From a virus: DNA of 24,655 nucleotides. Location: the IMG/VR virus record IMGVR_UViG_3300032820_000115, positions 1 through 24,655 of that record, one strand, 5' to 3'. A program made the translations under genes and the position numbers. The notes beneath the pieces are model-generated. The model saw nothing but the letters and a program-made list of their open reading frames with translations. It made no database searches and had not been told where the DNA came from. Shown here in pieces: positions 1,315-24,638 of the stretch (position 1 is its first letter; the number at the start of each line of letters is the position of its first letter).

Positions 1315-1813
1315 ACGCGGAGGCGGGCGCAAACCAACGCCAACAAAACTTAAGCTGCTTCGCGGCGTCGACAAGGTTCAACCATCACGAATCAATCGCG
1401 CAGAACCGGAAGCACCTACCGGACGCCCCGACCCACCGCAGCACCTAGAAGGGCGCGAGCTGGAAGCGTTCACGTGGTTCTTGGATCAAGTCGACGCCAT
1501 GTCTCTTAGTTCGACGACGTGGCTGCACGCTGCCGAGATATACGCCGACTCGTACGCTAAGTGGCGACAGGCAAAAGAAATGGTTGAGCGGCTCGGACAA
1601 GCGGTCGTGTTGCGTGGCAAGGACGGCCAGACAGAGATTCGCCGCAATCCATTTAGCGTCGAGGCACACAAGTACAAGGACCAGTGCGTTCGTATGCTCG
1701 CCGAGTTCGGAATGACGGCGTCGAGCAAATCACGCATCGTCGGCACGAATAACACGCAGGAGGAAAGCACGAGTCGATGGGCGGAGTTTTTGAAAGGATC
1801 GAAAACAGGTTAG
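1298..1813 (+). CDS. terS: Terminase small subunit, P27-like
   Basis: A 171-residue protein that matches the P27 family of small terminase subunits in length, in the basic N-terminus (RRRGGGRKPTPTKLKLLRG), and in the C-terminal pattern AEFGMTASSKSRI. In this family the protein recognises phage DNA and loads the large subunit ATPase for packaging into the prohead. The central stretch contains the typical helical region with WLHAAEIYADSYAKW followed by a VVLRGKDGQTEIRRNPF-like segment. It begins within the end of the methyltransferase gene and ends three bases before the large subunit start, so the genes are very probably co-transcribed and translationally coupled. The gene symbol is a functional label. 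Confidence 0.85.
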   Translation: MAKQRRRGGGRKPTPTKLKLLRGVDKVQPSRINRAEPEAPTGRPDPPQHLEGRELEAFTWFLDQVDAMSLSSTTWLHAAEIYADSYAKWRQAKEMVERLGQAVVLRGKDGQTEIRRNPFSVEAHKYKDQCVRMLAEFGMTASSKSRIVGTNNTQEESTSRWAEFLKGSKTG

Positions 1814-1816
1814 TCG

Positions 1817-3559: not shown

Positions 3560-3592
3560 GTCCCCATAGCGCACAGAAGGGATTCTCAGTTT

Positions 3593-3739
3593 ATGGGACG
3601 AGATACAATACACACGATATTAGGTACACTTAGCATGGCACTGATTTCGGGTGGGCTGGCGTGGTTCTGGCATCCCGGAGCGGCGTGTGCTGTCGTGGGC
3701 TGCCTGATACTTGCCGGGATCGTTCATGCGAGATCGTAA
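3593..3739 (+). CDS. Small membrane protein between terminase and portal
   Basis: A 48-residue open frame starting MGRDTIHTILGTLSMALISG and ending IVHARS. It has two hydrophobic stretches flanking FWHPGA, so it probably forms two short membrane segments. An AGAAGG ribosome binding site lies about 12 bases before the ATG. It fills the gap between the large terminase and portal genes and ends three bases before the portal start. Similar tiny membrane proteins with a HPGAA-like turn occur at this position in many HK97-type phages and prophages; their function is not known to me. Start and reality of the gene are inferred from spacing, ribosome site and hydrophobic pattern. Confidence 0.65.
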   Translation: MGRDTIHTILGTLSMALISGGLAWFWHPGAACAVVGCLILAGIVHARS

Positions 3740-3742
3740 CTG

Positions 3743-5485
3743 ATGATCAACTTTCTTCTTCCTGAGTCGTCAGCAGTCAAGCAAGAACTCGGCCACCCTG
3801 CCGCTGGAGTTGTCGGCTGGTTCGATCGTTCCGAGAACACCGCACAAGTAGACGTTAATGCGGAAACCGCGTTATCGTATTCTGCCGTCTGGGCGGCAAC
3901 TCGCGTCATCAGCGAGACAGTTGCGACGCTGCCTTGCATACTGTATCGGCGCATGCCAGGAGGGGGGAAAGAGCGTCAGTCAGATGACCCGCGAATGACA
4001 GTCGTGCACGACAGCCCCAACGACTTCATGAGTCCCTATCAGTTTTTCGAGACCGCCACGGCTCACATGGCAATCAGGGGCAATTCATATTCGCGCATAA
4101 CCGAAGCGGCGGGTGGTCTATCGCTCGAACTGCGACTCCCGCAATCGGTGAGGATCGAAGGTAGCGGCGACGACTTTGTGTATCACGTAGACAAAATGAA
4201 AGAAACAATACCACGGTCGGAAATGCTGCATGTCCCGTCGTTGTCCAGCGATGGCATAACAGGATATTCAGTAGTGACCCAAGCCGCGCAGGCGATCGGT
4301 ACGGCAATGGCGACCGAAAACTATGCGGGCGGGCTGTTTGGGAACTCGGCGCAACCGTCAGGCGCGTTGGTCGTACAGCAACGGCTAAGCAAAGAACACC
4401 GCGAGAACTTCCGTAAAGAATGGGACGAGATACATCGAGGAAATACAAGTTCCCATAAAGTCGCGATACTACACGGCGGCATCACCTACACTCAACTGGG
4501 AATGACGAATGACGATGCGCAATTTCTGGAAAGTCGACGCTTCAGCATAGACGATATAGCACGTTGGTTCCGCGTACCCCCGCACATGATAGGCTCGCTG
4601 GAACGGGCGACGTTTTCAAATATCGAACAACAGGCAATTGAGTTTGTGACGTATTCTCTGACGCCGTGGTTAAAGCGTTGGGAGGGTGCGTTAAACAAAA
4701 AACTATTGCGCAGTAATGAACGGCGCGGACTATTTTTCGAGTTCCTGGTTGACGCTCTGCTACGCGGAGATATAGCCAGCAGGTACAACGCGTTCGCAAC
4801 CGCAAAACAATGGGGCTGGTTGAGCACGAACGAAATAAGATCATTAGAGAATATGAACCCGGTCCCGAATGGTGACGTTTATTTACAGCCGTTAAATATG
4901 TCGCCAGCTGGCAGCGTGCCAGATACGATCGCTGACAACTGGCAGGATCAGTGGATCAAGTCTCTCGCCGCGATTAAGGATGAAGCTATACAGTTAAGTA
5001 AGTTGGGAATGGATGCTTTGTGCGATGTCGAAGCGCGTCTGGAAAGCAGGCTATCATCCGTTCACGACCAGCAGGCCGAAATGAAAAAGGATTTATCAGA
5101 AATGGATAGTCGCACGCAAGTAGCTATATCAGCTTCAAGCGCCGACGAAATAGAATCGGCTGCCATCGGTTTAATTAAGGATGCATTGTGGACGAGTTCC
5201 AAGCGCGAAAATCGAGCCGCAAAAAAAGCTTCCCGCGCGCAGGAGTATTGCAACGCGTCATTTCTGGGGTGGCTGGACGAGCATTACGAAGATACTCGCG
5301 CGTGGTTAACGGAAAGGCTGGCTGAACCGCTGTCAGCGCTAGAGAAAATCGGGCGTCCGCAGAGTAATTGCATCGAAAACCACATCGACTCGCGACGGCT
5401 GTTTTTTCTTGAACTCACGAACGGACGGAAAGACGGCTTTGCGGATCGCGTCGCCGATGCGATCCGAGATTTGGAGAACTCATGA
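3743..5485 (+). CDS. Portal protein, HK97 family
   Basis: A 580-residue portal protein. The family pattern is clear in the N-terminal two thirds: ALSYSAVWAATRVISETVAT near residue 45, then LYRRMPGG, DSPNDFMSPYQFFE, and the later DDIARWFRVPPHMIGSLERA and NIEQQAIEFVTYSLTPW. Portals form the ring at the unique head vertex through which DNA is packaged and ejected. Typical HK97 portals are about 400-430 residues. This one has a C-terminal extension of about 160 residues, charged and probably helical (EARLESRLSSVHDQQAEMKK onward). Its last codons overlap the maturation protease gene by ATGA, indicating coupled translation. Confidence 0.92.
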   Translation: MINFLLPESSAVKQELGHPAAGVVGWFDRSENTAQVDVNAETALSYSAVWAATRVISETVATLPCILYRRMPGGGKERQSDDPRMTVVHDSPNDFMSPYQFFETATAHMAIRGNSYSRITEAAGGLSLELRLPQSVRIEGSGDDFVYHVDKMKETIPRSEMLHVPSLSSDGITGYSVVTQAAQAIGTAMATENYAGGLFGNSAQPSGALVVQQRLSKEHRENFRKEWDEIHRGNTSSHKVAILHGGITYTQLGMTNDDAQFLESRRFSIDDIARWFRVPPHMIGSLERATFSNIEQQAIEFVTYSLTPWLKRWEGALNKKLLRSNERRGLFFEFLVDALLRGDIASRYNAFATAKQWGWLSTNEIRSLENMNPVPNGDVYLQPLNMSPAGSVPDTIADNWQDQWIKSLAAIKDEAIQLSKLGMDALCDVEARLESRLSSVHDQQAEMKKDLSEMDSRTQVAISASSADEIESAAIGLIKDALWTSSKRENRAAKKASRAQEYCNASFLGWLDEHYEDTRAWLTERLAEPLSALEKIGRPQSNCIENHIDSRRLFFLELTNGRKDGFADRVADAIRDLENS

Positions 5486-6399
5486 CGGTCTATGACTGGC
5501 TGATAGCCGAAGATTACCCGCTAAGAACAAAACTTGAAAATATGATTGCGGCCCAGCGGGCAGGTATTAAGCGTTCATCGCGCCTGCCTATGTCTCGCGG
5601 TAACGTCGCTATCATTCCCCTACACGGGATGATCACGCAACGCGGCAGCGTGTTCGACTTAGAGTCGGGCGGGACTTCGACGCACGGCTTCGAGGCCGCC
5701 TTCCAGCGTGCGGTAAACTCGGATCGCATTGGAGCTATAGTAATCGACGTAGACTCTCCTGGGGGGACGTCAGCGGGCGTAGAGCAGGCAGCGGACAGAG
5801 TATTCGCAGCTCGCGGAACTAAGCCAATTGTCGCAGTCGCGAATTCTCAGGCAGCGTCTGCTGCGTACTGGATACCGTCAGCGGCGGACACATTTATCGC
5901 CGCCCCAGGTAGCGACGTAGGGTCTATCGGTGTATTCCGAATGCACTGGGACTATTCGTCAGCGCTGGAATCGGACGGTATAAGCGTGGAGTTTTTCGCT
6001 GAGCCAGCACGCAAAGTGGAGGGCAACCCGTTCGAGCCGCTGACCGATGAAGCGAGAACGCATCAGCTCGAACAAGTTCATGAAACGTATGCTGCGTTCA
6101 GCTCAGCCGTTGCGCGTCATCGCGGCGTCAGTGTCAGCGAGGCGCGCGAGAAGTTAGGAAATGGGCGTACGTTCCACGCGCAGTCCGCCAAACAGATAGG
6201 ACTCATAGATCGCGTCGCGTCGATGTCGCAGGTGCTCGCGGAGCTTGGCGTCGGGAAGGCTGGCACGAATGCCGAAAATACGCGACTTCTGGTCGACGCA
6301 TGGGAGTCGTGCGAAATTATCGAACAACGGAAACGCCGTGTAGGCACAGAGCGCAGGCGCATCACACTTGACGATGCGCGTCGAAAGCGAGTAACCTAG
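5482..6399 (+). CDS. Capsid maturation protease, S49 (SppA/ClpP-like) family
   Basis: A 305-residue serine protease of family S49. Visible landmarks are IPLHGMITQRG (about 45-55), DSPGG (91-95), the nucleophile region NSQAASAAYW with Ser126, and ARKVEGNPFEPL with Lys178, the likely second member of the Ser-Lys dyad. In HK97-type phages such proteases cut the scaffold or delta domain of the capsid protein inside the prohead. Its place between portal and capsid genes fits that role. The start overlaps the portal stop by ATGA. The C-terminus is basic. A terminator-like hairpin follows before the capsid gene. Confidence 0.9.
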   Translation: MTVYDWLIAEDYPLRTKLENMIAAQRAGIKRSSRLPMSRGNVAIIPLHGMITQRGSVFDLESGGTSTHGFEAAFQRAVNSDRIGAIVIDVDSPGGTSAGVEQAADRVFAARGTKPIVAVANSQAASAAYWIPSAADTFIAAPGSDVGSIGVFRMHWDYSSALESDGISVEFFAEPARKVEGNPFEPLTDEARTHQLEQVHETYAAFSSAVARHRGVSVSEAREKLGNGRTFHAQSAKQIGLIDRVASMSQVLAELGVGKAGTNAENTRLLVDAWESCEIIEQRKRRVGTERRRITLDDARRKRVT

Positions 6400-6410
6400 A
6401 ACGCTGCTGG

Positions 6411-6437
6411 TGCGCGTTCGCATGGCGTCGCGGGCTG
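6411..6437 (+). repeat. First copy of 27-bp direct repeat upstream of capsid gene
   Basis: The segment differs at one base from 6461-6487, exactly 50 bases further on. The second copy supplies the 5' arm of the downstream terminator hairpin; this first copy contains the same arm (GCGTCGCGGGCT) and could pair with the same 3' arm instead. Confidence 0.85.
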
Positions 6438-6460
6438 GCAAGGTACGCTGTAAATAATAG

Positions 6461-6487
6461 TGCGCGTTCGCAAGGCGTCGCGGGCTG
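6461..6487 (+). repeat. Second copy of 27-bp direct repeat upstream of capsid gene
   Basis: Matches 6411-6437 with one T/A difference. Its 3' half forms the 5' arm of the terminator hairpin at 6475-6522. Confidence 0.85.
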
Positions 6488-6522
6488 AATCTAATCCATT
6501 CGGCTCGCGACGCTTTTTTTTT
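6475..6522 (+). terminator. Intrinsic terminator between protease and capsid genes
   Basis: The 5' arm GCGTCGCGGGC (6475-6485) pairs with GCTCGCGACGC (6503-6513) with one G-T pair, over an AT-rich loop, followed at once by nine T (6514-6522). This is the textbook layout of a Rho-independent terminator. The capsid gene starts only 28 bases after the T run, so either termination is partial, or the hairpin acts as a processing or stability element for the capsid mRNA. Confidence 0.85.
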
Positions 6523-6549
6523 CGTTAGCCGACAACCCAGGGGGTCGTA

Positions 6550-7791
6550 ATGGCTACGAAAAATCTATACGAGGAACGTGCCGAGTTGGTCTCGCAGATG
6601 CGGCGCATTCTCGACGATTCGGACAGCGAAAGTCGCGATTTGACATCTGAGGACGAAGCGAAATACGAGGCGTTAGAGGCAGACGTCGGGAAATACGACG
6701 AGCAAATCGAGATCGACGAGCAGAGGGCTGAACGACGTAGCAGGCTCGCGGAGCGGGAGGCTACGATTATCAATCAGCCGCCTACACGACCGCAAACAGG
6801 GATCGTCGGCGATACCCTGACGGATACGCGCGAACGCGAGATGTCGGCGTTCAGATCCTATCTGGTCAACCCGAGAAGCTTTCGCGCGCAACAGGAACTC
6901 GCCGCGCTGCAAATGGACAGCGACACGGGCGGCGGTACGCTGACGATCCCGGAAACCTTCATTCAGCAGCTAATCGACGGACTCGACGAGACGCTGGCGA
7001 TTCGCAGCGTGGCGACTATTCTTCCGCTCACGAACGCAGCATCAATCGGCGCTCCGTCGTTGGACAACGACCCCTCTGACGCCGAGTGGACTGTCGAGCT
7101 ATCGACGGGGTCAGCTGACTCTACGATGTCCACTGGCAAGCGATCGCTGACGCCGCACCCGCTCGCGCAGCTGGTTAAAGTCAGCAAAACGCTTTTGCGT
7201 CGATCGCCGATTCCAGTTGATTCGCTTGTCCGTAGCAGACTCCAATTCAAACTCGGCGTCACCGAAGAAAAAGGATTCCTGACGGGGTCGGGGTCGCAGC
7301 AACCGCTCGGCCTGTTCACGGCGTCTGCTGACGGCGTGAGCACGACTGCCGACGTGTCGACGGACAACACGTCGTCAGCGATAACGGCAGACGGTTTGGT
7401 AAACGCACTCTACAGCCTAAAGGAGCAGTATCTGCGGTCTTCCAATTTACGGTGGTTGTTCCATCGCGACGCGATCAAGATGATCCGAAAATTGAAAGAC
7501 GGGAACGGCGATTACCTATGGACGCGCGGACTGGCTAACGATCGTCAGTCGACCATTCTCGACGTGCCGTATATGGTATCTGAGTTCGCGCCCAACACGT
7601 TTACCACTGGACTATATGTGGGGGCTATCGGCGACTTCTCATATTACTGGATCGCGGAATCTCTCGCGATGTCGATTGAAGTTGCAAGCGAACTGTATAT
7701 GGGGAGTAACGAGGATGGGTATTTTATTCGCGCCGAATTGGACGGAATGCCGGTACTTGAGGAAGCGTTCGCTCGCGTAACGCTCGCCTAG
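6550..7791 (+). CDS. Major capsid protein, HK97 fold
   Basis: A 413-residue major capsid protein. Residues 1 to about 75 form a charged, probably coiled-coil delta/scaffold region. A proline-rich linker (QPPTRP, 76-81) follows, then the HK97-fold domain with GGGTLTIPETFIQQLIDGLD, LVKVSKTLLRRSPIPV, FLTGSGSQQPLGLF and, near the end, DGMPVLEEAFARVTLA. The delta region is normally removed by the neighbouring protease during head maturation; no cleavage site is marked with certainty. The ribosome site AGGGGG lies about 6 bases upstream. Two stretches of this gene recur elsewhere: 6965-7001 in the methyltransferase and 6774-6793 in the CMP-sugar synthetase. Confidence 0.94.
   Translation: MATKNLYEERAELVSQMRRILDDSDSESRDLTSEDEAKYEALEADVGKYDEQIEIDEQRAERRSRLAEREATIINQPPTRPQTGIVGDTLTDTREREMSAFRSYLVNPRSFRAQQELAALQMDSDTGGGTLTIPETFIQQLIDGLDETLAIRSVATILPLTNAASIGAPSLDNDPSDAEWTVELSTGSADSTMSTGKRSLTPHPLAQLVKVSKTLLRRSPIPVDSLVRSRLQFKLGVTEEKGFLTGSGSQQPLGLFTASADGVSTTADVSTDNTSSAITADGLVNALYSLKEQYLRSSNLRWLFHRDAIKMIRKLKDGNGDYLWTRGLANDRQSTILDVPYMVSEFAPNTFTTGLYVGAIGDFSYYWIAESLAMSIEVASELYMGSNEDGYFIRAELDGMPVLEEAFARVTLA
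6774..6793 (+). repeat. 20-bp segment of capsid gene repeated in CMP-sugar synthetase
   Basis: Identical to 9575-9594. In both genes it is read in the same phase and encodes QPPTRP: here the linker after the delta region, there an unexpected segment just before a conserved strand. Confidence 0.8.
6965..7001 (+). repeat. 37-bp capsid gene segment repeated in methyltransferase
   Basis: Identical to 669-705. Here it encodes residues around 139-151 of the capsid protein in the frame expected for the family. Confidence 0.9.
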
Positions 7792-10402: not shown

Positions 10403-11091
10403 TTATTTCGCAGTACGATTATTATGCCGCCCGCGTACCAACACGCACTTGCGATGACTACTGGGATCGACGCGTCGATCCAGACGGCAACGTACGCGAG
10501 CGAATAGGCAGCGACGAGGAGAGACAGTACGTAGAAGACGTCGCAGACGAAATATCATACGTGGCATCGCAAAAGCCGCACAGCGTTCTAGATGTCGGCT
10601 GTGGACCGGGGTGGTTCTTGTCGGCACTGCCTGGGAATATCGTGAAATACGGCACGGACATTTGCAAGAAAGCAATGGACGAGGCGGAGGCACGCGGGGT
10701 TATATCTCTCTTATCATACGGGGCGTTCCAGTTCGACGTTGTTAGATGTCATCACGTAATCGAGCACATGCCAGAGCCGATTACGGAATTGCGGCGAATG
10801 CGACTGGCGACACGCCGAACGTTCATTCTGTCTACGCCGGACTTCGGCAGCCCTTGCGCGGAAAGATTTGGTGGCAATTATAGGATGTTGCGCGACGAAA
10901 CGCATTGCAGTCTATTTACGTTAGAATCGATGACGCGTGCATTAATCGACGTCGGCTTTATACTCGACCGAATAACGTTTCCGTTTCCTGACAGATACGC
11001 GACGCCTGATACTATGGCCCGCTGGCTGGATACTGAGCACGTCAGCCCGCCGTGGCCCGGAAACTGGATGACATTTTACTGCACGGTGTGA
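10399..11091 (+). CDS. SAM-dependent methyltransferase, class I
   Basis: About 230 residues from ATG 10399; a GTG nine bases upstream is a possible alternative, but the ATGA overlap with the phosphatase gene favours the ATG. SAM-binding motif VLDVGCGPGWF lies around residues 63-73. FDVVRCHHVIEHMPEP follows, then ILSTPDFGSP, matching small-molecule methyltransferases of the Methyltransf_11/23 type. In this cassette it may methylate a sugar or a glycan end, but the substrate is not readable from sequence. One base separates its stop from the NeuB-like gene. Confidence 0.85.
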   Translation: MIISQYDYYAARVPTRTCDDYWDRRVDPDGNVRERIGSDEERQYVEDVADEISYVASQKPHSVLDVGCGPGWFLSALPGNIVKYGTDICKKAMDEAEARGVISLLSYGAFQFDVVRCHHVIEHMPEPITELRRMRLATRRTFILSTPDFGSPCAERFGGNYRMLRDETHCSLFTLESMTRALIDVGFILDRITFPFPDRYATPDTMARWLDTEHVSPPWPGNWMTFYCTV

Positions 11092-14532: not shown

Positions 14533-14888
14533 AAAAGTCGCCGGAACGCATGATCGCGTTTCGGCTCGCTCTTGCGTTAGGCTATCGGCACCCGAACGAT
14601 CTGCTTGACCGCCTGACGTGTGCCGAATGGTGCGAGTGGCTGGCGTTTTTCAGTCTTGAGCCGTTCGGGGACGAGCGGGCAGATTTACGGGCAGGCATTG
14701 TTGCGTCGACTATCAGCAACAGGTTGAGGAGCAAGGGCGAGAAAGCACTACAGCCACACGAGTTCATGCCGTATTACACGGCACCACAACAAACGCCCGA
14801 AGAAATACAACGAGCGTTGCGAACGTTTTTAGTAGGTCAGCATGGCAACAATCGGAACGATCGCGATCAACCTAGTAGCTCGGACTGA
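14529..14888 (+). CDS. Tail assembly chaperone, frameshifted extension (gpT-like)
   Basis: After the -1 shift the reading continues LKKSPERMIAFRLALALGYR for 119 codons, giving a 234-residue fusion with the upstream gene. It contains WLAFFSLEPFGDERADLRAG and IVASTISNRLRSKG, a pattern typical of the DUF4035-like extension of tail chaperones. An ATG at 14550 gives an independent 112-residue frame, but its ribosome site is poor, and fusion is more likely. The 3' end overlaps the start of the tape measure gene by 47 bases. Confidence 0.85.
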   Translation: MKKSPERMIAFRLALALGYRHPNDLLDRLTCAEWCEWLAFFSLEPFGDERADLRAGIVASTISNRLRSKGEKALQPHEFMPYYTAPQQTPEEIQRALRTFLVGQHGNNRNDRDQPSSSD

Positions 14889-16437
14889 TCGTTTGCGCAA
14901 GGATCTCAGGAAAGGCTCGCAGTCGATTAGCGTATTCGCGCAGTCGACGCAACAACTACAAGGCGGACTCGGTAGGATTGTCGCACCGCTCGCGGCGACT
15001 GCCGCCGCTCTGCTGTCAGTTCGGGCGGCATACGGGAAAGTCAAGCAAGAGTTTGCCGACGTCGACGCATTAGCAAAGACCGCTGACAAACTGGGGCTAA
15101 CGACTGAAGAGCTGGCGTCGCTGCGTCACGCTGCAAGTATCACGGCGGGCGTCACGTCACAGACGCTTGACATGGCGTTGCAGCGAATGACTCGGCGGCT
15201 GTCAGAAGCAGCCAGTGGCACGGGCGAAGCGAAAGCCGCTATTAAAGAACTGGGCCTATCCGCTAAAGAACTCGAACGGGCTGGGCCTGCGGCGGCATTC
15301 TCCGCAATCGCCGACGCAATACAAGATGTCGAGAATCCCGCCGACCGCTTGCGGCTATCCTTCAAACTGTTCGACAGCGAGGGTGCGGCACTCGTCAACA
15401 CCTTACGCGTCGGAAGTGCTGGCTTGGCAGGCTTTCGAGAGGATGCCGAGAAGTTGGGCGTTACATTAAACCGGCAAGACGCGTCGAAGATCGAGTCTGC
15501 TAATGATGCCATGACGCGTCTGGGTGCCCTGTTCAGCGGTGTGGCTCGCAGAATCGCTGTAGAACTTGCGCCGTTTTTAGAGTTCGCCGTCGAGTCTATG
15601 GTGGCGTTCGGCACGGAAGGCGAGGGGGCGTCAGGCATGGTTCGCGGCGGCGTTGATCTCGTGATTAAAGGGATCGGATTTCTGCTCGACGGTGTGGACT
15701 TGCTGCGAACGGGCTGGATGGCAATGGGCGTCGGCGGCCAGCTTGTCTTTGAGGGCATGTTGCAAGGCGTTGCTGCGATGGTTCGCGGGATCGAGTTCGC
15801 TGCTGAGACTGTCGTCTCAGTGTTCCGTTCAGCGTTCGCAAGTGCGCATCAATTTGTATCAGAAGCGATCGGCAGGATGATCGATTTACTGGCACGCGTT
15901 GCGACGTTCATAGAATCAAAGTTGCCAGAGCGATTCCGTATCGGAATTGGCAATGCGGCGAATGAGTTTAGCAGTGCTTTCCAAGATGTTGTCGCGACCA
16001 ATCGCGAAATGCTAGCTAATACAGATTTCAGCACTGACTTTAAGTTAGGCGGCGAAACAACTACAGCGTTTGCGAATGCTTTTAGTGACGGCGTAAGGCA
16101 GGCGGAAGACGATTTCAACAAGTTTGCCAATAGAGAAAAGCTGTCGGACAGGCTGAAGAGCGGAGTCGAAGAGGTTCGAGCAAAGGCAGATGCGGCGGCA
16201 GAGAACGCAACCGCAGCGGCGGGCGAACTGGGAACGGAAACGCAAGCACTGGCGACCGCAAAACAAGTCACGCCCCGCGCACTCGAACGAGGCAGTCAAC
16301 AAGCGTTTTCTGCATTTCAAAAATCGCAGAAGGGCGGGCAGACTGAAGAGCAGATACTCGCAGAGAATAAGCGGCAGCGCAAGGCACTCGAAACGATCGC
16401 ACGTAATCCAATTGTTTTAGGTGCGGCAGGGATCTGA
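14842..16437 (+). CDS. Tail tape measure protein
   Basis: A 531-residue protein with the tape-measure layout: helical N-terminus (ARTDRLRKDLRKGSQSIS), Ala/Gly-rich central part, and a hydrophobic region around residues 260-335 (GVDLVIKGIGFLLDGVDLLR onward). The C-terminus is charged. Tape measures set tail length and are ejected with DNA. At the usual rough scale of 0.15 nm per residue it would give a tail near 80 nm, which is short for a siphovirus. Located directly after the chaperone pair, as in nearly all long-tailed phages. Confidence 0.9.
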   Translation: MATIGTIAINLVARTDRLRKDLRKGSQSISVFAQSTQQLQGGLGRIVAPLAATAAALLSVRAAYGKVKQEFADVDALAKTADKLGLTTEELASLRHAASITAGVTSQTLDMALQRMTRRLSEAASGTGEAKAAIKELGLSAKELERAGPAAAFSAIADAIQDVENPADRLRLSFKLFDSEGAALVNTLRVGSAGLAGFREDAEKLGVTLNRQDASKIESANDAMTRLGALFSGVARRIAVELAPFLEFAVESMVAFGTEGEGASGMVRGGVDLVIKGIGFLLDGVDLLRTGWMAMGVGGQLVFEGMLQGVAAMVRGIEFAAETVVSVFRSAFASAHQFVSEAIGRMIDLLARVATFIESKLPERFRIGIGNAANEFSSAFQDVVATNREMLANTDFSTDFKLGGETTTAFANAFSDGVRQAEDDFNKFANREKLSDRLKSGVEEVRAKADAAAENATAAAGELGTETQALATAKQVTPRALERGSQQAFSAFQKSQKGGQTEEQILAENKRQRKALETIARNPIVLGAAGI

Positions 16438-17330
16438 TGGCAGCAACAGTACGCGGAATATCTGTAGACGGCAGACAAGGCTCCGTTAACGCTAAGGGCG
16501 AACGCGATTACAAAGTCGTTTACAAAGTGTCGACGGACAACGTAAACGACGGAGCAAAGGAAGTTCGGCAGGCGTTCGGGGTTCCGCAGATTGGCGACGT
16601 TTACTCAGCGGGAAACGACGCTGACACTGACGCAGTCGTTACAAATAAAAGCGTGTCGCAAAGTGACTCACCGTGGGAGTGGGAAGTTGAGATCACTTAT
16701 TCGACGGTACTCGAAGATGAGCCTGAGCAACCCATAAGCCCACTCGCGGCGGCACCCAAGATAAGCTACGGAGCACAGACGCGGCGAATTATGATCCCAG
16801 GCTATTTCGATAACGCTGGCAGTCCACCGTCTAGCAAGGATTTTGACAGGGGAATAGTTGCACCAAATGGCGAGTTGTTCGATCCGCAACCGGAAATGGA
16901 TATCACAGAACCGTCGCTAACGATTAGGAGGAACATTGCAACGGTGAGCGGTCCCGCGTTGATGGCATTGGCGAGCACAGTCAACGCAACGGCGTTTTTC
17001 GGTGCAGACGCGAGGCAGTTAAAATTGTCGATACCGCAAGTGTCGTCGCAGTGGGACAAGACGATCGGCGACTACTGGGACATTACGTATACGTTGACTT
17101 ATAAATGGGACACGTGGGACATTCAGCTTCTGAATCAAGGCGCATATTACTGGACGGGCGGAAAGCCTGCCGACGTGACGAGCACAACGCCAAAAGTAAA
17201 GACCGCGTCAGGAAACCCGATTATCGTTAATCTGACAACCGACGGCGACATTAACACGACTGACGTTCCAACGTACACCCGCTTAAGGGTGTATCGTGAA
17301 ATAGACTTTAACGGTCTGGGGATAATCTGA
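16437..17330 (+). CDS. Tail-tip/distal tail protein, putative
   Basis: A 297-residue protein overlapping the tape measure stop by one base. It has stretches such as RGISVDGRQG, VSQSDSPWEWEVEITYSTV, ALASTVNATAFFGADARQLK and YKWDTWDIQLLNQGAYYW. I recall similar proteins, with a final WDxxLLxQGxYx motif, directly after tape measure genes in siphovirus-like phages. That supports a tail-tip or distal tail role, but no characterised homologue comes to mind. Tight coupling to the tape measure gene and the next gene (one base gap) places it in the tail operon. Confidence 0.65.
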   Translation: MAATVRGISVDGRQGSVNAKGERDYKVVYKVSTDNVNDGAKEVRQAFGVPQIGDVYSAGNDADTDAVVTNKSVSQSDSPWEWEVEITYSTVLEDEPEQPISPLAAAPKISYGAQTRRIMIPGYFDNAGSPPSSKDFDRGIVAPNGELFDPQPEMDITEPSLTIRRNIATVSGPALMALASTVNATAFFGADARQLKLSIPQVSSQWDKTIGDYWDITYTLTYKWDTWDIQLLNQGAYYWTGGKPADVTSTTPKVKTASGNPIIVNLTTDGDINTTDVPTYTRLRVYREIDFNGLGII

Positions 17331-20091: not shown

Positions 20092-20700
20092 CGATTCCCT
20101 CGTGTTTTAGCGGCCGAAAAAACTTCCGTAATATCCGAGATTTTACCGCGACCGCTATTGCAAAGCATCGCGACATGGACTAACATGCGTGTAGTTGAAG
20201 TGACTAAAGCAGACATTCAAAACGAGGAGACGACATAGCGGCGACCAGAGCCGGGGGACGAAACCCAAACGATCATCACGGACGCGACCCCAGCACACCA
20301 CGCCGGTCGCCGGAGACAATCGGCCACGTCTCGTAAATAACTGGTCACGAGTGGTGACGATATCACCCGATAGCTGCGACAGCAGAATCGCACCAGCACT
20401 ACACGACGAGGCACCTGTCATCCTCAGACGCGATAACGGAGACACGAGACACGACGAGACGAGACACGAAACACGACGAGACGAGGCTCAACCGGCAAAA
20501 AGTAGTCGACGAGAGATCAACGACGCGGCTAATCTTGTATCGCAATGATTGGTTACTTATTCCATCGGCGAAGCGACCCGGCGTTAATAGGCCATACGTG
20601 GCCGACCTCTCAGCCCGGGGGCAGACACGGTCGATCCACGATGATCGGTCCTATCGGTGGCAGCCAACGAAGCCTACTCGTTAGCGAGACACAATACACA
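20092..20700. other. Intergenic region without a convincing gene
   Basis: About 600 bases between the minus-strand pair and the first element-led gene. Short frames on both strands look random in composition; the one at 20351-20548 runs through a tandem repeat. It is the natural site for divergent promoters, but I see no clear -35/-10 pair. A repeat lies at 20440-20486, and an isolated AACGAGGAG string near 20220 has no usable start codon after it. Confidence 0.6.
20440..20486 (+). repeat. Short purine-rich tandem repeat
   Basis: The unit ACACGACGAGACGAG occurs at 20449-20463 and 20471-20485, a 22-base period, with a ten-base partial copy at 20401-20410 and flanking GAGACACG variants. Confidence 0.75.
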
Positions 20701-20755
20701 GTCGAGTCGCTCGACTACGCTGCCGCACGTTGCGGCAGCGACTTGGGGCGATTTA
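20701..20755 (+). repeat. Structured leader element, copy 1
   Basis: Dyad GTCGAG-TCG-CTCGAC (20701-20715) followed by a perfect 10-bp hairpin CGCTGCCGCA-CGT-TGCGGCAGCG (20718-20740) and the conserved TTGGGGCGATTTA (20743-20755). A GAAAGGCGA ribosome site and the ATG at 20785 follow. Confidence 0.9.
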
Positions 20756-20784
20756 CCAACTCTGTTTGAAAGGCGAGCACCGCA

Positions 20785-21171
20785 ATGACATTTATTGAAA
20801 CACGAGTCGTCAACGGGACAAACTACGAGAACCACGTCAGTGGACCGGTCGACGCTGATCAGGTTCGGGAGGGCGGCGCAACGGCTTATGTCGAAGTACG
20901 ATCGCAGCATGCAAAAGGGTCGGGCTGGCAGTCAGGACCGGATCGGTACGTTGCTGTGCAGATCGTACCAGCTGGAGTCGATCCGCTCACGAGCCTCAAT
21001 TCGCGTGTGGCAGAATGTCGCGGGATCGAAATCAGGCAATTCGGCGAGGGGTACTCGCATCGCACCGGACCGCGATCGGCACTCGGGATGGCGATCGCAG
21101 ACGCTGAGGAATTCGCAACCGCGAGGAACGCGCTGGTCTATTTGGGGTTTGTGGGACCGGAAAAAAGCTAG
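20785..21171 (+). CDS. Hypothetical early-module protein
   Basis: A 128-residue protein of no recognised family. It starts MTFIETRVVNGTNYENHVSG and includes YVEVRSQHAKGSGWQSGPDR, YVAVQIVPAGVDPLTSLNSR and a helical C-terminus with ALGMAIADAEEFATARNAL. It is preceded by repeat element copy 1 and a GAAAGG ribosome site about 9 bases before the ATG. The compact, mixed alpha/beta pattern and the shared leader with its neighbours support a real gene. Function unknown. Confidence 0.65.
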   Translation: MTFIETRVVNGTNYENHVSGPVDADQVREGGATAYVEVRSQHAKGSGWQSGPDRYVAVQIVPAGVDPLTSLNSRVAECRGIEIRQFGEGYSHRTGPRSALGMAIADAEEFATARNALVYLGFVGPEKS

Positions 21172-21173
21172 GC

Positions 21174-21189
21174 GCAGCACGTTGCGACA
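21174..21189 (+). repeat. Fragment of the leader element
   Basis: The 16 bases GCAGCACGTTGCGACA match the hairpin part of copy 3 (21612 onward) and lie just before copy 2. It looks like a remnant of an earlier copy. Confidence 0.65.
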
Positions 21190-21204
21190 TCCGCACGAGA
21201 CACA

Positions 21205-21259
21205 GTCGAGTCGCTCGACTACGCTGCCGCAACGTGCGACAGCGACTTGGGGCGATTTA
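21205..21259 (+). repeat. Structured leader element, copy 2
   Basis: Dyad GTCGAG-TCG-CTCGAC, a hairpin with one C-A mismatch (GCTGCCGCA / TGCGACAGC), then TTGGGGCGATTTA. It is followed by ACG plus seven T and by GAAAGGCGA before the ATG at 21297. The 14 bases before it (TCCGCACGAGACAC) also precede copy 4. Confidence 0.9.
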
Positions 21260-21296
21260 AACGTTTTTTTCTATCTCTGTTTGAAAGGCGAAATTA

Positions 21297-21596
21297 ATGA
21301 CAAACAACGAAAAGCAGGTTGCCAGCTATTTACGCGATCACGGTAGTAGATTCGATGGTGGCGGCCGCGCAAGCCGAGCGGAACTGGCCACGCAGTGGAT
21401 GGATTGTTTTTCCGATCCGTTCGAGTGCGCAGACTGGATGGCCGCAGGTTTTTGGTGCCCGCAAACCGCGTGCGCTGTGTCGTATCTTGGGATACGTCCA
21501 GCCGACGTTGCCGCGATTTGCGACCCGAGTCACATTATTCCGCTTTCAACAGGCGACAAGGTAAATTCGCTACGCCAGGGACAGACGGTGCGCTAG
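21297..21596 (+). CDS. Hypothetical early-module protein
   Basis: A 99-residue protein: charged N-terminus (NNEKQVASYLRDHG), then WMDCFSDPFECADWMAAGFW and CPQTACAVSYLGIRPADVAA. The segment ADWMAAGFWCPxTA recalls a short helical phage motif (xxWxxAGxxxPxxAxxLxxxGxxP), but I cannot name a family. It is preceded by element copy 2 and a GAAAGG ribosome site, and its stop lies at the first bases of element copy 3. Function unknown. Confidence 0.65.
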   Translation: MTNNEKQVASYLRDHGSRFDGGGRASRAELATQWMDCFSDPFECADWMAAGFWCPQTACAVSYLGIRPADVAAICDPSHIIPLSTGDKVNSLRQGQTVR

Positions 21597-21645
21597 TCGC
21601 TCGACTACGCTGCAGCACGTTGCGACAGCGACGTGGGGCGAAAAA
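21595..21645 (+). repeat. Structured leader element, copy 3 (diverged)
   Basis: Shortened dyad AGTCG-CT-CGACT overlapping the previous stop codon, a weaker hairpin (GCTGCAGCA / TGCGACAGC with internal mismatches), and a variant string GTGGGGCGAAAAA instead of TTGGGGCGATTTA. A T-rich tract and GAAAGGCGA before the ATG at 21682 are kept. Confidence 0.8.
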
Positions 21646-21681
21646 GAAACGTTTTTTACTCTCTTCTGAAAGGCGAAAGTA

Positions 21682-21957
21682 ATGAATTACCGAATATGTA
21701 GCATAAAGACGACGGTGATTTTCAATGGCGAACTGTCGGACGCAATCAGACAGGCACTGTTGATCGACTCCGAGTTCCGCCCCGCCTTCGGCGTTCAGGT
21801 CTACATCGCCGAGGGCGAGGGCGAGGGTTCGCACGACGACGATGACATGCTGTGGGACACGGAGGATCCCGAATACTATCGGGATGTCCTGGAGGACGAC
21901 GAGAGATACGACACCAGCCCTCACTCGGAACTGGGCAGGGTGATCGACACCGCGTAG
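21682..21957 (+). CDS. Hypothetical acidic protein, paralogue of the 23566 gene product
   Basis: A 91-residue, strongly acidic protein. The start NYRICSIKTTVIFNGELSDA, the motif GVQVY and the later WDTEDPEYYRDVLEDDERYD align with the protein encoded at 23566-23970 (IYRIG, EGGLSGAI, GVQVY, VWDTDDPDDYWESL). This indicates an old duplication within the module. It is preceded by element copy 3 and a GAAAGGCGA ribosome site. The function is unknown; the acidic, compact form would fit a small regulator or DNA mimic, which is speculation. Confidence 0.7.
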   Translation: MNYRICSIKTTVIFNGELSDAIRQALLIDSEFRPAFGVQVYIAEGEGEGSHDDDDMLWDTEDPEYYRDVLEDDERYDTSPHSELGRVIDTA

Positions 21958-21977
21958 CAGAGTCCGCACGAGACACG

Positions 21978-22032
21978 GTCGAGTCGCTCGACTACGCTGC
22001 CGCACGTTGCGACAGCGACTTGGGGCGATTTA
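21978..22032 (+). repeat. Structured leader element, copy 4
   Basis: Dyad GTCGAG-TCG-CTCGAC, hairpin GCTGCCGCA / TGCGACAGC with one mismatch, and TTGGGGCGATTTA. A long T/C tract and AAAGGCGA follow, before the ATG at 22069. Shares the upstream TCCGCACGAGACAC with copy 2. Confidence 0.9.
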
Positions 22033-22068
22033 AACTCTTTTTTTTCTCTCTTTTTAAAGGCGATCACG

Positions 22069-23487
22069 ATGAATTTTAGCGACATGATGAAGCAGGACAT
22101 TACGAACAGTGGCCCGAACGTTGTAAAGGAAGAGCACGACTCGAACAAAATCGACATCAGCAACGCGACGGACAATGCTCGAGCGGGTACGCTGTCGCGA
22201 CGTCGAGACGCGAGCAATCGCGGCGAAGGCTGGGACGCGTACGAGTACGGGATGAGCGAAACGGAAGCCGTTCGCCTCGCGACGACAGAAGAGGGGCGAC
22301 AGCAGATTCGCGAGAGTGCGAAGGCTCGGGCGGATCTCGACGACTCGACGGGAAAGGTGGCCATGCTGAGTGCCCTACAGCCCGCGTGGCATGGACTGGG
22401 AGTGCAGATCGATCGAGCTGTTGACGGACAGCAGGCGATCGAGTTTGCTTCGCTCGCGGGATGGGGTTTAAGGAAGCATGAGCACCGCGTCGACGTCACA
22501 CTCGGTCCCGGCGTACCCATGGAGGATGGCGACCGCGTCATGCACTCGGACATGGAGGCCCAGGTGGTCAGCCGACCGTCTGGGAATTACGCGATCGTTC
22601 GCGGCGACACGGGCGCGGTGATCGGAAAAAGTGTCGGCAGCCAATATGAGATTTTCGAGAATGAACAGCTCGCGGATCTCGTGGACGCCGTGCTCGACTT
22701 TGGTGCGGAAGTGATCACAGCCGGATCGCTCGGGAAAGGTGAGAGGGTTTGGATTCTCGCGAAGATGCCCGAGACTGCGACTGTCGCGGAAGGCGACACG
22801 CTCGAGCAGTACATTCTGTTCGTCAACGCTCACGACGGTTCGGGTGCTATCAAAGTCATGCCGACGAGCGTGCGAGTAGAGTGTGCGAACACAATGCCGA
22901 ACACGCGAGGGCGACGCGGGATCTCGATCCGACACACGAAGAACGCGAAGCAACGAGTGGCAGAAGTTAAGCGCGCACTCGGGCTGGCTGTGCAAGAGTT
23001 CGACGAGTTCGCGGATATGGCTCGCGAGTTGGCGGCGGCGGAAATGACAGTGTCGCCCGAGTCGTTCTTTGACGACGTGCTGGATCAGGCACTGACTAGC
23101 AACGTCGCGGGCGAGCGGGTGACGTCCGCGAAAATTCTCGACGGGACGATTCGCAAGGCAATCGGATCGGTTGTCAACGAGGAACTGCGAGATGCTGAAC
23201 TGAAAAAGTTCGATCGCCACCTGAAGCGTCGTGCGTCGCTCATGGACGACATGCTCGCTCGCTTCGCCAACGAACGCTGCAACGGCAAAGAGTCGATCTC
23301 TGGCTCGATATGGGCTGCCGTAAACGCTGTCACGGAGAACCTTGACCACAGCCCGTTGTGGCAATTGAATAATCCCGAGTCGACTCGACAGAATCGCGCC
23401 GAGTCGCGGTTTGATTCCTTGCTGACGGGAACGGCAGCGGATCTCACCGAGTACACGTTGAGTGCCGCAAAGGCTCTGCTGAACTAA
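22069..23487 (+). CDS. DUF932 (phage/plasmid-like) protein
   Basis: A 472-residue protein whose residues from about 100 on match DUF932: PAWHGLGVQIDRAV (WHGLG at 107-111), then GDTGAVIGKSVGSQYEIFEN, FGAEVITAGSLGKGERVWIL, EQYILFVNAHDGSGAIKVMP and VRVECANTMPN. The first 95 residues are an extra charged, low-complexity part not typical of the family. DUF932 proteins are common on phages and plasmids; their function is not settled (roles in DNA recombination or defence-related processes have been suggested). It is the largest gene of the element-led module and has copy 4 with an AAAGG ribosome site upstream. Confidence 0.88.
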   Translation: MNFSDMMKQDITNSGPNVVKEEHDSNKIDISNATDNARAGTLSRRRDASNRGEGWDAYEYGMSETEAVRLATTEEGRQQIRESAKARADLDDSTGKVAMLSALQPAWHGLGVQIDRAVDGQQAIEFASLAGWGLRKHEHRVDVTLGPGVPMEDGDRVMHSDMEAQVVSRPSGNYAIVRGDTGAVIGKSVGSQYEIFENEQLADLVDAVLDFGAEVITAGSLGKGERVWILAKMPETATVAEGDTLEQYILFVNAHDGSGAIKVMPTSVRVECANTMPNTRGRRGISIRHTKNAKQRVAEVKRALGLAVQEFDEFADMARELAAAEMTVSPESFFDDVLDQALTSNVAGERVTSAKILDGTIRKAIGSVVNEELRDAELKKFDRHLKRRASLMDDMLARFANERCNGKESISGSIWAAVNAVTENLDHSPLWQLNNPESTRQNRAESRFDSLLTGTAADLTEYTLSAAKALLN

Positions 23488-23489
23488 GC

Positions 23490-23546
23490 GAGTCGCTCGA
23501 CTACGCTGCCACGAGTCCGATCGTGGCGGCGACTTGGGGCGATTTA
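23490..23546 (+). repeat. Structured leader element, copy 5
   Basis: Shortened dyad AGTCG-CT-CGACT, then a hairpin CGCTGCCACGA / TCGTGGCGGCG of 11 bp with one G-T pair and a six-base loop, then TTGGGGCGATTTA. Arm sequence differs from copies 1-4 but pairing is kept. AAGGAG precedes the ATG at 23566. Confidence 0.9.
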
Positions 23547-23565
23547 CCAACTTAAGGAGTGTCGA

Positions 23566-23970
23566 ATGATCTACAGAATTGGAAGTGAGGGACTTGAGGG
23601 CAGTGGCTCGGTCAGTATCAGCGGCAATAGATGGTCGCTCGCAGACGATGGATACCTCGTCTATGAGGGTGGCCTGTCGGGCGCAATCAAGCTGGCGATC
23701 GACATCGAGGACGCGCACAATCCGGACGGGGGCGTCCAGGTGTACGAAGGCGTTCGCGACGGCTGGGGCGATCCTGTCTTACCTGCGGCTATTCTTTACC
23801 GACAGGTCTGGGACACGGACGACCCCGACGACTACTGGGAGTCGCTTTGCGACGAACATGGGCACAGTGTCGTCTCGTATCAAGTCGACAAGAACGGCGA
23901 TCTTGAGGCGGTCATCCACTTAGATTGTCCCCTGCCTGCAACTGGAGGAATGCGTGATGACAATGCATGA
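23566..23970 (+). CDS. Hypothetical acidic protein, paralogue of the 21682 gene product
   Basis: A 134-residue protein with AAGGAG seven bases before the ATG. It starts MIYRIGSEGLEGSGSVSISG and carries YEGGLSGAIKLAIDIEDAHN, GVQVYEG and VWDTDDPDDYWESLCDEHGH. The spacing of GVQVY and WDTxDPxxY matches the protein at 21682, with about 10 more residues between them and a C-terminal extension (SYQVDKNGDLEAVIHLD). No family is recognised. The end overlaps the next gene by 14 bases, suggesting coupled translation. Confidence 0.7.
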   Translation: MIYRIGSEGLEGSGSVSISGNRWSLADDGYLVYEGGLSGAIKLAIDIEDAHNPDGGVQVYEGVRDGWGDPVLPAAILYRQVWDTDDPDDYWESLCDEHGHSVVSYQVDKNGDLEAVIHLDCPLPATGGMRDDNA

Positions 23971-24190
23971 TCCAAGGCCGACTCTCATCGACACTGTGAA
24001 CGAGGATCTTGCACCCATCCTTGCCAAGCATGGCATTCGCCATGTCTTGGAATCCTTGGGCGATACGCTGGAATACAATGCCCAGGAGTTCCTACGCCGG
24101 GCACCCGGTGCGATGGGTGACGCCCTGGCTAATGAGAGACTGGAGGCCGCACGACACGCACGTCAGGCTGCCGAATGGATCAACCGGTAA
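23957..24190 (+). CDS. Small helical protein, unknown
   Basis: 77 residues from ATG 23957, chosen because GGAGGA lies seven bases upstream; a GTG one codon earlier and an ATG two codons later are alternatives. The sequence is mostly helical (LIDTVNEDLAPILAKHGIRH, LESLGDTLEYNAQEFLRR, EAARHARQAAEWINR). I do not recognise the family. It is the one gene of this module without its own leader element. It overlaps the preceding gene instead, so it is likely translated as a coupled second cistron. Confidence 0.65.
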   Translation: MTMHDPRPTLIDTVNEDLAPILAKHGIRHVLESLGDTLEYNAQEFLRRAPGAMGDALANERLEAARHARQAAEWINR

Positions 24191-24206
24191 GCCGACGATC
24201 CCGTAA

Positions 24207-24275
24207 GGCAGCGTAGCCGAGCGACTCGACTACGCTGCCACGATCGGAATCGCGGCGGCGACTTGGGGCGATTTA
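24207..24275 (+). repeat. Structured leader element, copy 6 (long fold-back form)
   Basis: Here a 33-base inverted repeat runs from 24207 to 24239: GGCAGCGTAG pairs with CTACGCTGCC, CGAG with CTCG, around the centre CGA, with only one mismatch (24217/24229). The centre is the reverse complement of that in the other copies. The second hairpin (GCTGCC-A-CGAT / ATCG-C-GGCGGC) and TTGGGGCGATTTA follow. AAGGGCGA precedes the ATG at 24301. Confidence 0.88.
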
Positions 24276-24300
24276 ACCACTTCTTTTAAGGGCGAACGCG

Positions 24301-24552
24301 ATGACCCAACAAACACACGAATACCCAGTCGCCAAATTTGTCGACGGCGAGCGCACCGAGAATTTCTACGTCGCCAGTACCAGCCGCAGTGCGGCTGCCG
24401 CGACGATCTACAAAATGTGCAACGCGCCGCAGGCATTGCCAGGGGCGATCGCACTCGGGGCTTCGGGTTTCACGGTCCTCATAGATGGAGGCGTTACTAG
24501 TTACACGATTATGGACCACGATTATACCGACGACGTATTCGTCGGCCGATAG
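24301..24552 (+). CDS. Hypothetical small protein
   Basis: An 83-residue protein: EYPVAKFVDGERTENFYVAS, then SRSAAAATIYKMCNAPQALP and FTVLIDGGVTSYTIMDHDY. Mixed alpha/beta, no known family, no signal or membrane segment. Preceded by element copy 6 with a ribosome site AAGGGCG nine bases before the ATG. Followed by element copy 7, which should lead a further gene beyond the window end. Confidence 0.65.
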   Translation: MTQQTHEYPVAKFVDGERTENFYVASTSRSAAAATIYKMCNAPQALPGAIALGASGFTVLIDGGVTSYTIMDHDYTDDVFVGR

Positions 24553-24578
24553 GCAGCGTTAACAACTGAAGGAATTTA

Positions 24579-24638
24579 GTCGAGTCGCTCGACTACGCTG
24601 CCACGAGTCCGATCGTGGCGGCGACTTGGGGCGATTTA
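24579..24638 (+). repeat. Structured leader element, copy 7
   Basis: Dyad GTCGAG-TCG-CTCGAC, the same hairpin as copy 5 and TTGGGGCGATTTA. After it come ACGTTTTTT and GAAAG, the start of a ribosome site, at the window end. A GGCAGCGT 20-30 bases upstream (24552-24559) could pair with ACGCTGCC at 24595-24602, as in the fold-back of copy 6. Confidence 0.9.

Follow-up and report, generated by a model that had tools for sequence, protein, structure and literature searches.

A repeated, foldable leader element precedes nearly every gene of one module in a tailed phage known from metagenomes

The DNA analyzed here (the window, 24,655 nt) belongs to a tailed phage known from metagenomes alone, and a module of seven plus-strand genes follows its structural region. 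Gene 1 (20785..21171; 128 aa) and gene 2 (21297..21596; 99 aa) have no family match, and gene 7 (24301..24552; 83 aa) has none above the cut-off. Gene 3 (21682..21957; 91 aa) and gene 5 (23566..23970; 134 aa) are paralogs (BLASTP 34% over 74 positions, E 3e-8). Gene 4 (22069..23487; 472 aa) encodes a DUF932 protein (PF06067; Pfam 152.8 bits at a cut-off of 23; phrog_1221). Gene 6 (23954..24190; 78 aa) overlaps gene 5, carries the Shine-Dalgarno (SD) sequence GGAGGA, and starts either at 23954 (GTG) or at 23957 (ATG). The module is probably polycistronic. No relatives of gene 5 were found in viral contigs or phages and none of gene 1 in phages, and gene 4 has only distant relatives (<60% identity; ~25–30% among the matches listed), a DUF932 gene being present in 1 of 30 terminase- or capsid-related records.

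A single element of ~60 nt occurs seven times in the window, always on the plus strand. Copy 1 (20700..20755; covariance-model score 86.2 bits) ends 29 nt before the ATG at 20785, copy 2 (21204..21259; 82.4 bits) 37 nt before the ATG at 21297, copy 3 (21592..21645; 66.3 bits) 36 nt before the ATG at 21682, copy 4 (21977..22032; 83.9 bits) 36 nt before the ATG at 22069, copy 5 (23488..23546; 76.5 bits) 19 nt before the ATG at 23566, and copy 6 (24207..24275; 65.9 bits) 25 nt before the ATG at 24301. The gene behind copy 7 (24577..24638; 80.6 bits) lies beyond the window end, which also cuts the downstream part of this copy. For the six copies with a gene inside the window, the element's 3′ end thus stands 19–37 nt ahead of the start codon. 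Copy 3 overlaps the stop codon of the preceding gene, and copy 5 begins directly 3′ of the DUF932 gene's stop codon.

An earlier note, made from the letters of this DNA, had placed seven copies before start codons here, and both motif counts and the covariance model (65.9–86.2 bits) confirm it. The 16-mer GACTTGGGGCGATTTA has six exact occurrences in the window against a chance expectation of 0.17 at ≤3 mismatches, as does TCGCTCGACTACGCTGC against an expectation of 0.23 at the same tolerance. An unfiltered covariance-model search of the window returned exactly seven strong plus-strand matches; next in rank came the seven elements echoed on the reverse strand (≤23.9 bits), together with one match at 575–616 (17 bits). 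No copy was detected by this search in the first 20.6 kb, in agreement with the note's statement that the 20 kb of structural genes hold none, and its observation that the gene at 23957 has no copy and overlaps its upstream neighbor also stands. A second assembly (L007; 9,489 bp, 99.9% identical) has copies 1–3 at the same places, and the element is therefore not a one-off assembly artefact. Several details given in the note are corrected: CTTGGGGCGATTTA is exact in six of the seven, the degenerate copy 3 reading GTGGGGCGAAAAA, and the T/C tract is strong in copies 2–4 only. The proposed common dyad is near-perfect in several copies, with its left arm truncated in copy 3 and its sequence altered in copy 6.

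What does the element look like as RNA? Unconstrained RNAalifold on the seven copies yields an outer stem (P1), an A-U pair within an internal loop, and a hairpin (P2). P1 is formed by GAGUCGCUC and GGGCGAUUU, with TTGGGGCGATTTA as its 3′ strand, and it encloses a conserved 5x5 internal loop (GACUA/ACUUG) followed by P2, which has 9–11 pairs and a tip that varies and still pairs; P1 and P2 together contribute 19–20 pairs around the internal loop. For the note, the dyad, the hairpin and TTGGGGCGATTTA were three distinct parts, whereas in the consensus fold GAGUCGCUC of the dyad region pairs with TTGGGGCGATTTA around the hairpin. The dyad is an alternative fold, mutually exclusive with P1, and P1+P2 lies 3–9 kcal/mol below dyad+P2 in the five copies with an intact P1 (1, 2, 4, 5 and 7). 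In copy 3 P1 is cut to 6 bp, P2 is mismatched, and the copy's own best fold differs from P1+P2; in copy 6 P1 is broken. Two P2 types are seen, type A in copies 1, 2 and 4 and type B in copies 5–7, and between their tips two pairs have changed on both sides and one U-A has become U-G, with pairing kept.

The strongly conserved block extends from about the 5′ end of P1 to its 3′ end. In every copy the plus-strand fold is at least equal to that of the minus strand, and the polarity read from P2 alone is equivocal, a C.A mismatch in copies 2 and 4 being G.U on the other strand. When the 13-nt tails were shuffled, 0.1–1.2% folded as well as P1 in copies 1, 2, 3 and 5, 2% in copy 7, 10% in copy 4 and 47% in copy 6. 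P1 by itself is only modestly above chance, and the copies are not independent; elsewhere in the window the architecture turns up in loose form ~0.4 times per kb. TTGGGGCGATTTA is exact in copy 6 although P1 is broken there, which suggests either that the sequence matters in its own right or that the change is recent.

Behind P2 and P1 comes a short, weakly structured stretch with an SD sequence at its end. The motif GAAAGGCGA, which the note had listed as a separate element, is this SD sequence: it is exact in copies 1–3 and replaced by TAAAGGCGA in copy 4, TTAAGGAGT in copy 5 and TAAGGGCGA in copy 6. In copy 1 the SD region (20766..20784, plus strand) containing GAAAGGCGA gives an anti-SD duplex of −8.2 kcal/mol. 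Mean SD pairing is stronger in the module than in the structural genes (−7.2 vs −5.1, the module mean being taken over all seven genes, leaderless gene 6 included), and local folding energies at the initiation regions behind the element are −0.4 to −5.5 kcal/mol, structural genes usually giving −4 to −12. The computed accessibility of the ribosome-binding site is not raised by the element except in copy 3, opening energies being close to those of shuffled leaders, and an unmasking or insulating effect is not significant outside that copy. Masking likewise is no general rule.

These results bear on one alternative hypothesis, namely that the element is an RNA operator at which a phage or host protein would bind the internal loop and P1 and, without cleavage, control all genes of the module together through their translation or stability. 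The conservation of the internal loop and both P1 strands as opposed to the variable P2 tip is what such a binding site would predict, a start codon follows every copy with a visible gene, and two mutually exclusive folds are available. However, most copies form no stable pairing with the SD sequence or start codon, opening energies outside copy 3 resemble the values for shuffled leaders, and no candidate regulator was found, the small proteins having no family match. We regard this operator as rather unlikely.

A second question is whether each element marks the start of a transcription unit, in which a promoter for host or phage RNA polymerase and an operator-like dyad would serve each gene, with the 18-mer GCGACTTGGGGCGATTTA as recognition sequence. 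In favor, even copy 6, which cannot form P1, retains the 18-mer, several copies have a dyad that is a near-perfect inverted repeat of 7 bp, and the comparably placed Extended Start-Associated Sequences (ESAS) of mycobacteriophage Adephagia have been reread as inverted repeats with a putative SigA-like promoter (PMC11373665). A sigma-70 scan found one match, on the minus strand, against 2.1 expected, and none on the plus strand, for a consensus that may not be the host's promoter type; since the scan also missed the promoter that the module itself must have, the missing consensus says little for this host. Against a promoter in each copy, the 18-mer has no conserved −10-like hexamer or second box at a fixed distance downstream, the spacer to the start codon varies, and nothing is conserved upstream of copies 3 and 5, both of which begin at or directly after the preceding stop codon. 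Moreover, a 5-nt indel changes the spacing of the 5′ and 3′ blocks between type A and type B copies, so that a promoter would need to sit in one block. A promoter in each copy is an unlikely reading, though slightly less so than the RNA operator. A sigma-54-like reading of TTGGGGCGATTTA and leader-peptide attenuation were both dropped on inspection by eye, their defining parts being missing.

That the elements are intrinsic terminators between genes is very improbable. A stable hairpin does lie within the intergenic gaps, and copies 2, 3, 4 and 7 have T-runs of 6–8; these runs nevertheless begin several nucleotides past the last stem and are absent from copies 1, 5 and 6, and copy 1 stands before the first gene. 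No terminator-like site, sought as a GC-rich hairpin with a T-run within 0–2 nt, was found on the plus strand of the module, while the same search detected the phage's clear terminator at 6472–6516 (19 pairs, T9), which is of a different form.

The copies also record how they have changed. Copies 5 and 7 share an identical 58-nt core, and differences in the hairpin loops are largely inversions: a hairpin loop of copy 2 reads ACG in place of CGT, and in copy 6 both the dyad loop (TCG to CGA) and the P2 loop are inverted, the left 22 nt of this copy repeating the element's 5′ part in inverted orientation. Such inversions form a readable record of how palindromic leaders mutate. Could the element then be mainly a repeat at the DNA level, a mobile or recombinogenic junction travelling with gene cassettes and having little role in expression? 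Three loop inversions have a joint chance of ~1e-6 under uniform bases, and the inverted duplication in copy 6, the identity of copies 5 and 7 and the paralogy of genes 3 and 5 all point the same way. Yet small loop inversions are normal palindrome mutation and need no recombinase, and all copies are oriented alike and stand in a constant relation to the SD sequence and start codon that follow them. An integron attC-like site is not supported, the core site GTTRRRY (R′) occurring in no copy and RYYYAAC (R″) in one. We consider a mainly DNA-level role improbable.

The explanation we favor, at somewhat less than even confidence, is that the element is an mRNA leader, repeated before one gene after another, which would work like the intercistronic RNase III sites of phage T7 and be followed by an open, SD-bearing start. 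All the data agree with the note's broader suggestion of a repeated regulatory cassette by which every small gene has a leader to itself. We hypothesize that a plus-strand RNA leader lies ahead of each gene or overlapping gene pair, and that P1 and P2 form a processing site of the T7 kind. The unconstrained consensus fold, the pairing retained in P2, the limits of the conserved block, the energy advantage of P1+P2, the plus-strand folding, the likeness to folded T7 sites, the weakly folded starts with their stronger SD pairing and the hairpins of the capsid-related phage L098 (below) speak for it. The modest significance of P1, its loss in copy 6, the divergent copy 3, the loose look-alikes elsewhere in the window, the equivocal strand signal of P2 and the accessibility of the ribosome-binding site, unraised outside copy 3, speak against it. 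Cleavage at or close to the internal loop would fall to a double-strand-specific RNase, most obviously the host's RNase III, and the resulting mRNAs would each have a short leader at the start and an accessible ribosome-binding site, such that mRNA level and translation could be set separately for each gene. The copies may have spread by duplication of the leader or of gene-plus-leader units. More tentatively, this may be an undescribed phage RNA element that makes the genes of an early module independent mRNA units, by means of an internal-loop RNA recognized by a nuclease or phage protein and copied gene by gene with its own ribosome-binding site. Should the element prove to be a processing site, an isolated lineage of phages would have independently reached T7's route from one long transcript to separately tuned mRNAs, and would have applied such tuning to almost every gene of a module. 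Being compact and foldable, the element lends itself to a plasmid reporter assay that needs neither phage nor host.

The note had counted a lack of further copies in related phages among the results that would refute its reading, and no copy turned up in relatives. Exact and gapped pattern searches of viral and genome contigs and blastn against phages and plasmids were combined with covariance-model searches of terminase-related loci, 46 capsid-related records and pattern-matched contigs, and outside the second assembly the ~170 related or pattern-matched loci, the phages, the plasmids and the genomes yielded no copy. One candidate carrier (L008) proved to be a chance match inside an ORF, after pentapeptide-like repeats, and Rfam gave no covariance-model match at E≤1. 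Even the nearest relatives found reach only ~50% capsid and ~40% terminase identity, and most of them are fragments, which makes this a weak test; the closest terminases in genomes (35–38% identity) are on MAG contigs labelled Acidobacteria and Planctomycetaceae. In L098, a phage whose capsid is related (47% identity), three unrelated hairpins, long and interrupted, stand directly 5′ of start codons.

How does the element compare with known phage repeats? The promoter-early stem-loops (PeSLs) of T4-type phages (Arbiol 2010 and Comeau 2014, cited in PMC4503421) combine an early promoter with a terminator and, like the present element, are small repeated stem-loop cassettes between small early genes; the element here has no terminator-like site on the module's plus strand, and the note's contrast with PeSLs is right as far as testable: neither a terminator nor a consensus promoter, of a type that may not be the host's, was found. 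Cluster O mycobacteriophages carry 17-bp palindromic repeats, about a third of them inside genes and not bound to start codons (PMC4351075). These share a 7-bp inverted repeat with a 3-bp spacer, many copies and a dense distribution in the non-structural arm, and differ in that no larger structure is described for them (PMC4351075).

The Start-Associated Sequences (SAS) and ESAS of Cluster K mycobacteriophages are repeats before non-structural start codons, in gaps >50 bp and mostly in one orientation, with an inverted repeat 5′ of an SD-containing motif, and are absent from structural genes (PMC3203893, PMC12699233, PMC11373665). The present element likewise has its inverted repeat just upstream and is confined to non-structural genes with wide gaps. 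In contrast, the 13-bp GGGATAGGAGCCC beside the Cluster K start codon is absent here (no match anywhere in the window at ≤2 mismatches), the structured region is the most conserved part and the SD part is variable, and SigA-like hexamers were not found. The Cluster K repeats have had no proven function after more than a decade.

For T7, DNA was folded around five early RNase III cut points in NC_001604, and most gave a similar architecture. The shared features are an outer stem, a small internal loop, an inner stem of 9–13 pairs and a short loop, with several copies in a small-gene region; four of the five folded sites lie ~30 nt ahead of the gene. The T7-type combination of two helices and an internal loop, of ~20 bp in an intercistronic leader, is present in copies 1, 2, 4, 5 and 7, partial in copy 3 and absent from copy 6. 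The differences are that the two share no sequence similarity, the element's covariance model finding nothing in T7 500–6700, and that the element here, a putative cleavage site, has a T/C tract after some copies and precedes nearly every gene of its module. T7 itself has 10 RNase III sites (PMC9135205).

Seven copies of one element of ~60 nt, located on the + strand at 20700, 21204, 21592, 21977, 23488, 24207 and 24577, were claimed in the earlier note to be confined to a module of small genes. This was borne out by a covariance model, which matched the copies at 66–86 bits; the claimed absence from the structural genes also held, with the rest of the + strand reaching at most 17.2 bits in an unfiltered search. 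A chance origin of the copies is excluded because a 16-mer of the element occurs in six exact copies, compared with 0.17 matches expected even when three mismatches are allowed. Copy 3 is degenerate. A second assembly of the same phage, 99.9% identical to the window, contains copies 1–3. The window is a single virus contig of 24,655 bases, the long first part of which carries genes for a DNA methylase, terminase, portal, protease and HK97-type capsid, among others. Between this part and the module, which runs on the + strand from 20,785 to the window end, lie ~600 bases without clear genes (~20100–20700) that represent a possible promoter or origin region. A GAGACAC-type tandem array is present in this stretch at 20439–20485.

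The anatomy of the element was derived from alignments A1 and A3 and an unconstrained consensus fold. The outer stem, P1, pairs GAGUCGCUC with GGGCGAUUU through nine pairs, including three G.U and one U.G, and is separated by a 5x5 internal loop (GACUA/ACUUG, with a single A-U pair possible) from the inner hairpin stem, P2, of 9–11 pairs (CGCUG...CAGCG or CGCUG...CGGCG). The tips of P2 are of two kinds, type A in copies 1–4 and type B in copies 5–7. The start codon follows the end of P1 by 19–37 nt. A T/C tract, described earlier as usual, is present 3' of P1 in copies 2–4 and is shorter or absent in the others; after this region comes a Shine-Dalgarno (SD) sequence (GAAAGG, TAAAGG, TAAGGAG or TAAGGG). 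Since the dyad GUCGAG-UCG-CUCGAC occupies bases of the P1 5' strand, the two folds are mutually exclusive, and P1 with P2 is 3–9 kcal/mol lower than the dyad alternative in five copies.

P2 is well supported, in that both tip types pair, two pairs are altered on both sides, and one U-A is changed to U-G. Support for P1 comes from energy, from conservation matching the stem boundaries and from shuffled-tail tests, which gave 0.1–1.2% in copies 1, 2, 3 (via a different fold) and 5, and 2% in copy 7, whereas copies 4 and 6 gave 10% and 47%, respectively. Pair counts exceed those of slid controls, although these copies are few and related. The P1 plus P2-like architecture is in itself not rare (~0.4 per kb under loose rules); form alone therefore proves nothing, and it is the repeated placement that counts. 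P1 is lost in copy 6, although TTGGGGCGATTTA is exact there, which reflects either a recent change or a role of the sequence itself.

Three loop differences among the copies are inversions. The dyad loop of copy 6 is inverted (TCG to CGA), as is the P2 loop of copy 2 (CGT to ACG), and the P2 loop of copy 6 (GTCCGA to TCGGAA) is one mismatch from an exact inverse; the joint chance of the three is ~1e-6, assuming uniform bases. In copy 6, the 5' part of the element also occurs in inverse as the leftmost 22 nt, forming a 15-nt inverted repeat (93%) at 24207–24239. Loop inversions and an inverted 5' duplication are probably traces of template switching at DNA hairpins, and they suggest that the loop sequence is free to vary.

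Does such an element act in RNA or in DNA? Its position, orientation, SD coupling and self-contained fold argue that it is probably a 5' leader acting in RNA. It precedes each gene or overlapping pair, the first gene included, and the initiation regions behind it have less structure and stronger mean SD pairing than those of the structural genes; in the computed folds, the element itself is not the cause of this openness. Two module genes that are paralogs (21682–21957 and 23566–23970; 34% over 74 positions) each have their own leader, with different P2 types. The DUF932 protein (22069–23487) shares at best only ~30% identity with its counterparts in actinophages and plasmids; among the structural-gene relatives of this phage, its gene is nearly missing. 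The strongest rival is that each gene has its own promoter or operator: the ESAS of Adephagia, which resemble the element in placement, have been given a new reading (PMC11373665) as inverted repeats that hold a putative SigA-like promoter, and an 18-mer of the element is kept in copy 6. However, no second conserved box was found, spacing varies among copies, and no conserved sequence lies upstream of the element in copies 3 and 5. A protein-bound RNA operator is possible. Readings as an attC site or an intrinsic terminator fail on the defining features, and the same phage has a very different, textbook terminator between the head protease and major capsid genes (6472–6516; 19 pairs, then a T-run). 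The left-hand sequence of this terminator, GTGCGCGTTCGCAWGGCGTCGCGGGCTG, is present twice, ~51 bases apart.

Outside this phage, the element was found neither in viral contigs and plasmids nor in Rfam or 50,697 phage records, and a search with one gapped exact pattern gave no copy in 84,980 bacterial and archaeal genomes. The check for further copies in related phages proposed in the earlier note, by covariance model, yielded none among terminase or capsid relatives. As the DNA patterns were exact or near-exact and the relatives are distant and fragmentary, a diverged element may have escaped. Three relatives bear repeated leaders unrelated to the element. L098, with a capsid 47% identical, has a long interrupted hairpin, CCACAGAGACACAGAG...CTCTGTGCCTCTGTGGC, in three copies (10404–10550, 14619–14765 and 16428–16570), each directly 5' of a start codon. 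L141 has a ~99-nt leader in five copies (798–896, 1307–1405, 1840–1938, 2760–2858 and 3493–3591), most of them observed directly preceding an SD and ATG; two also have an upstream GAGCC-hairpin-TTTT and CATAATA box resembling PeSL. In L010, a GC-rich hairpin, GCCGGCCCCCACGCGGGGCCGGC, is attached in both of its copies (350–405 and 772–827) to an SD and ATG.

The function of the element is what we infer from these features, and among RNA mechanisms the intercistronic RNase III sites of T7 come closest to the element in both form and location. When T7 DNA was folded around five early cut points, at what we take to be the RNase III positions, a similar order of parts was obtained in most. By analogy, cleavage at the element would free the mRNA of each gene with its own short leader. 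T7 carries ten RNase III sites (PMC9135205). The present element is real and structured and is apparently specific to this phage, and it belongs with the known repeated gene-start elements of phages.
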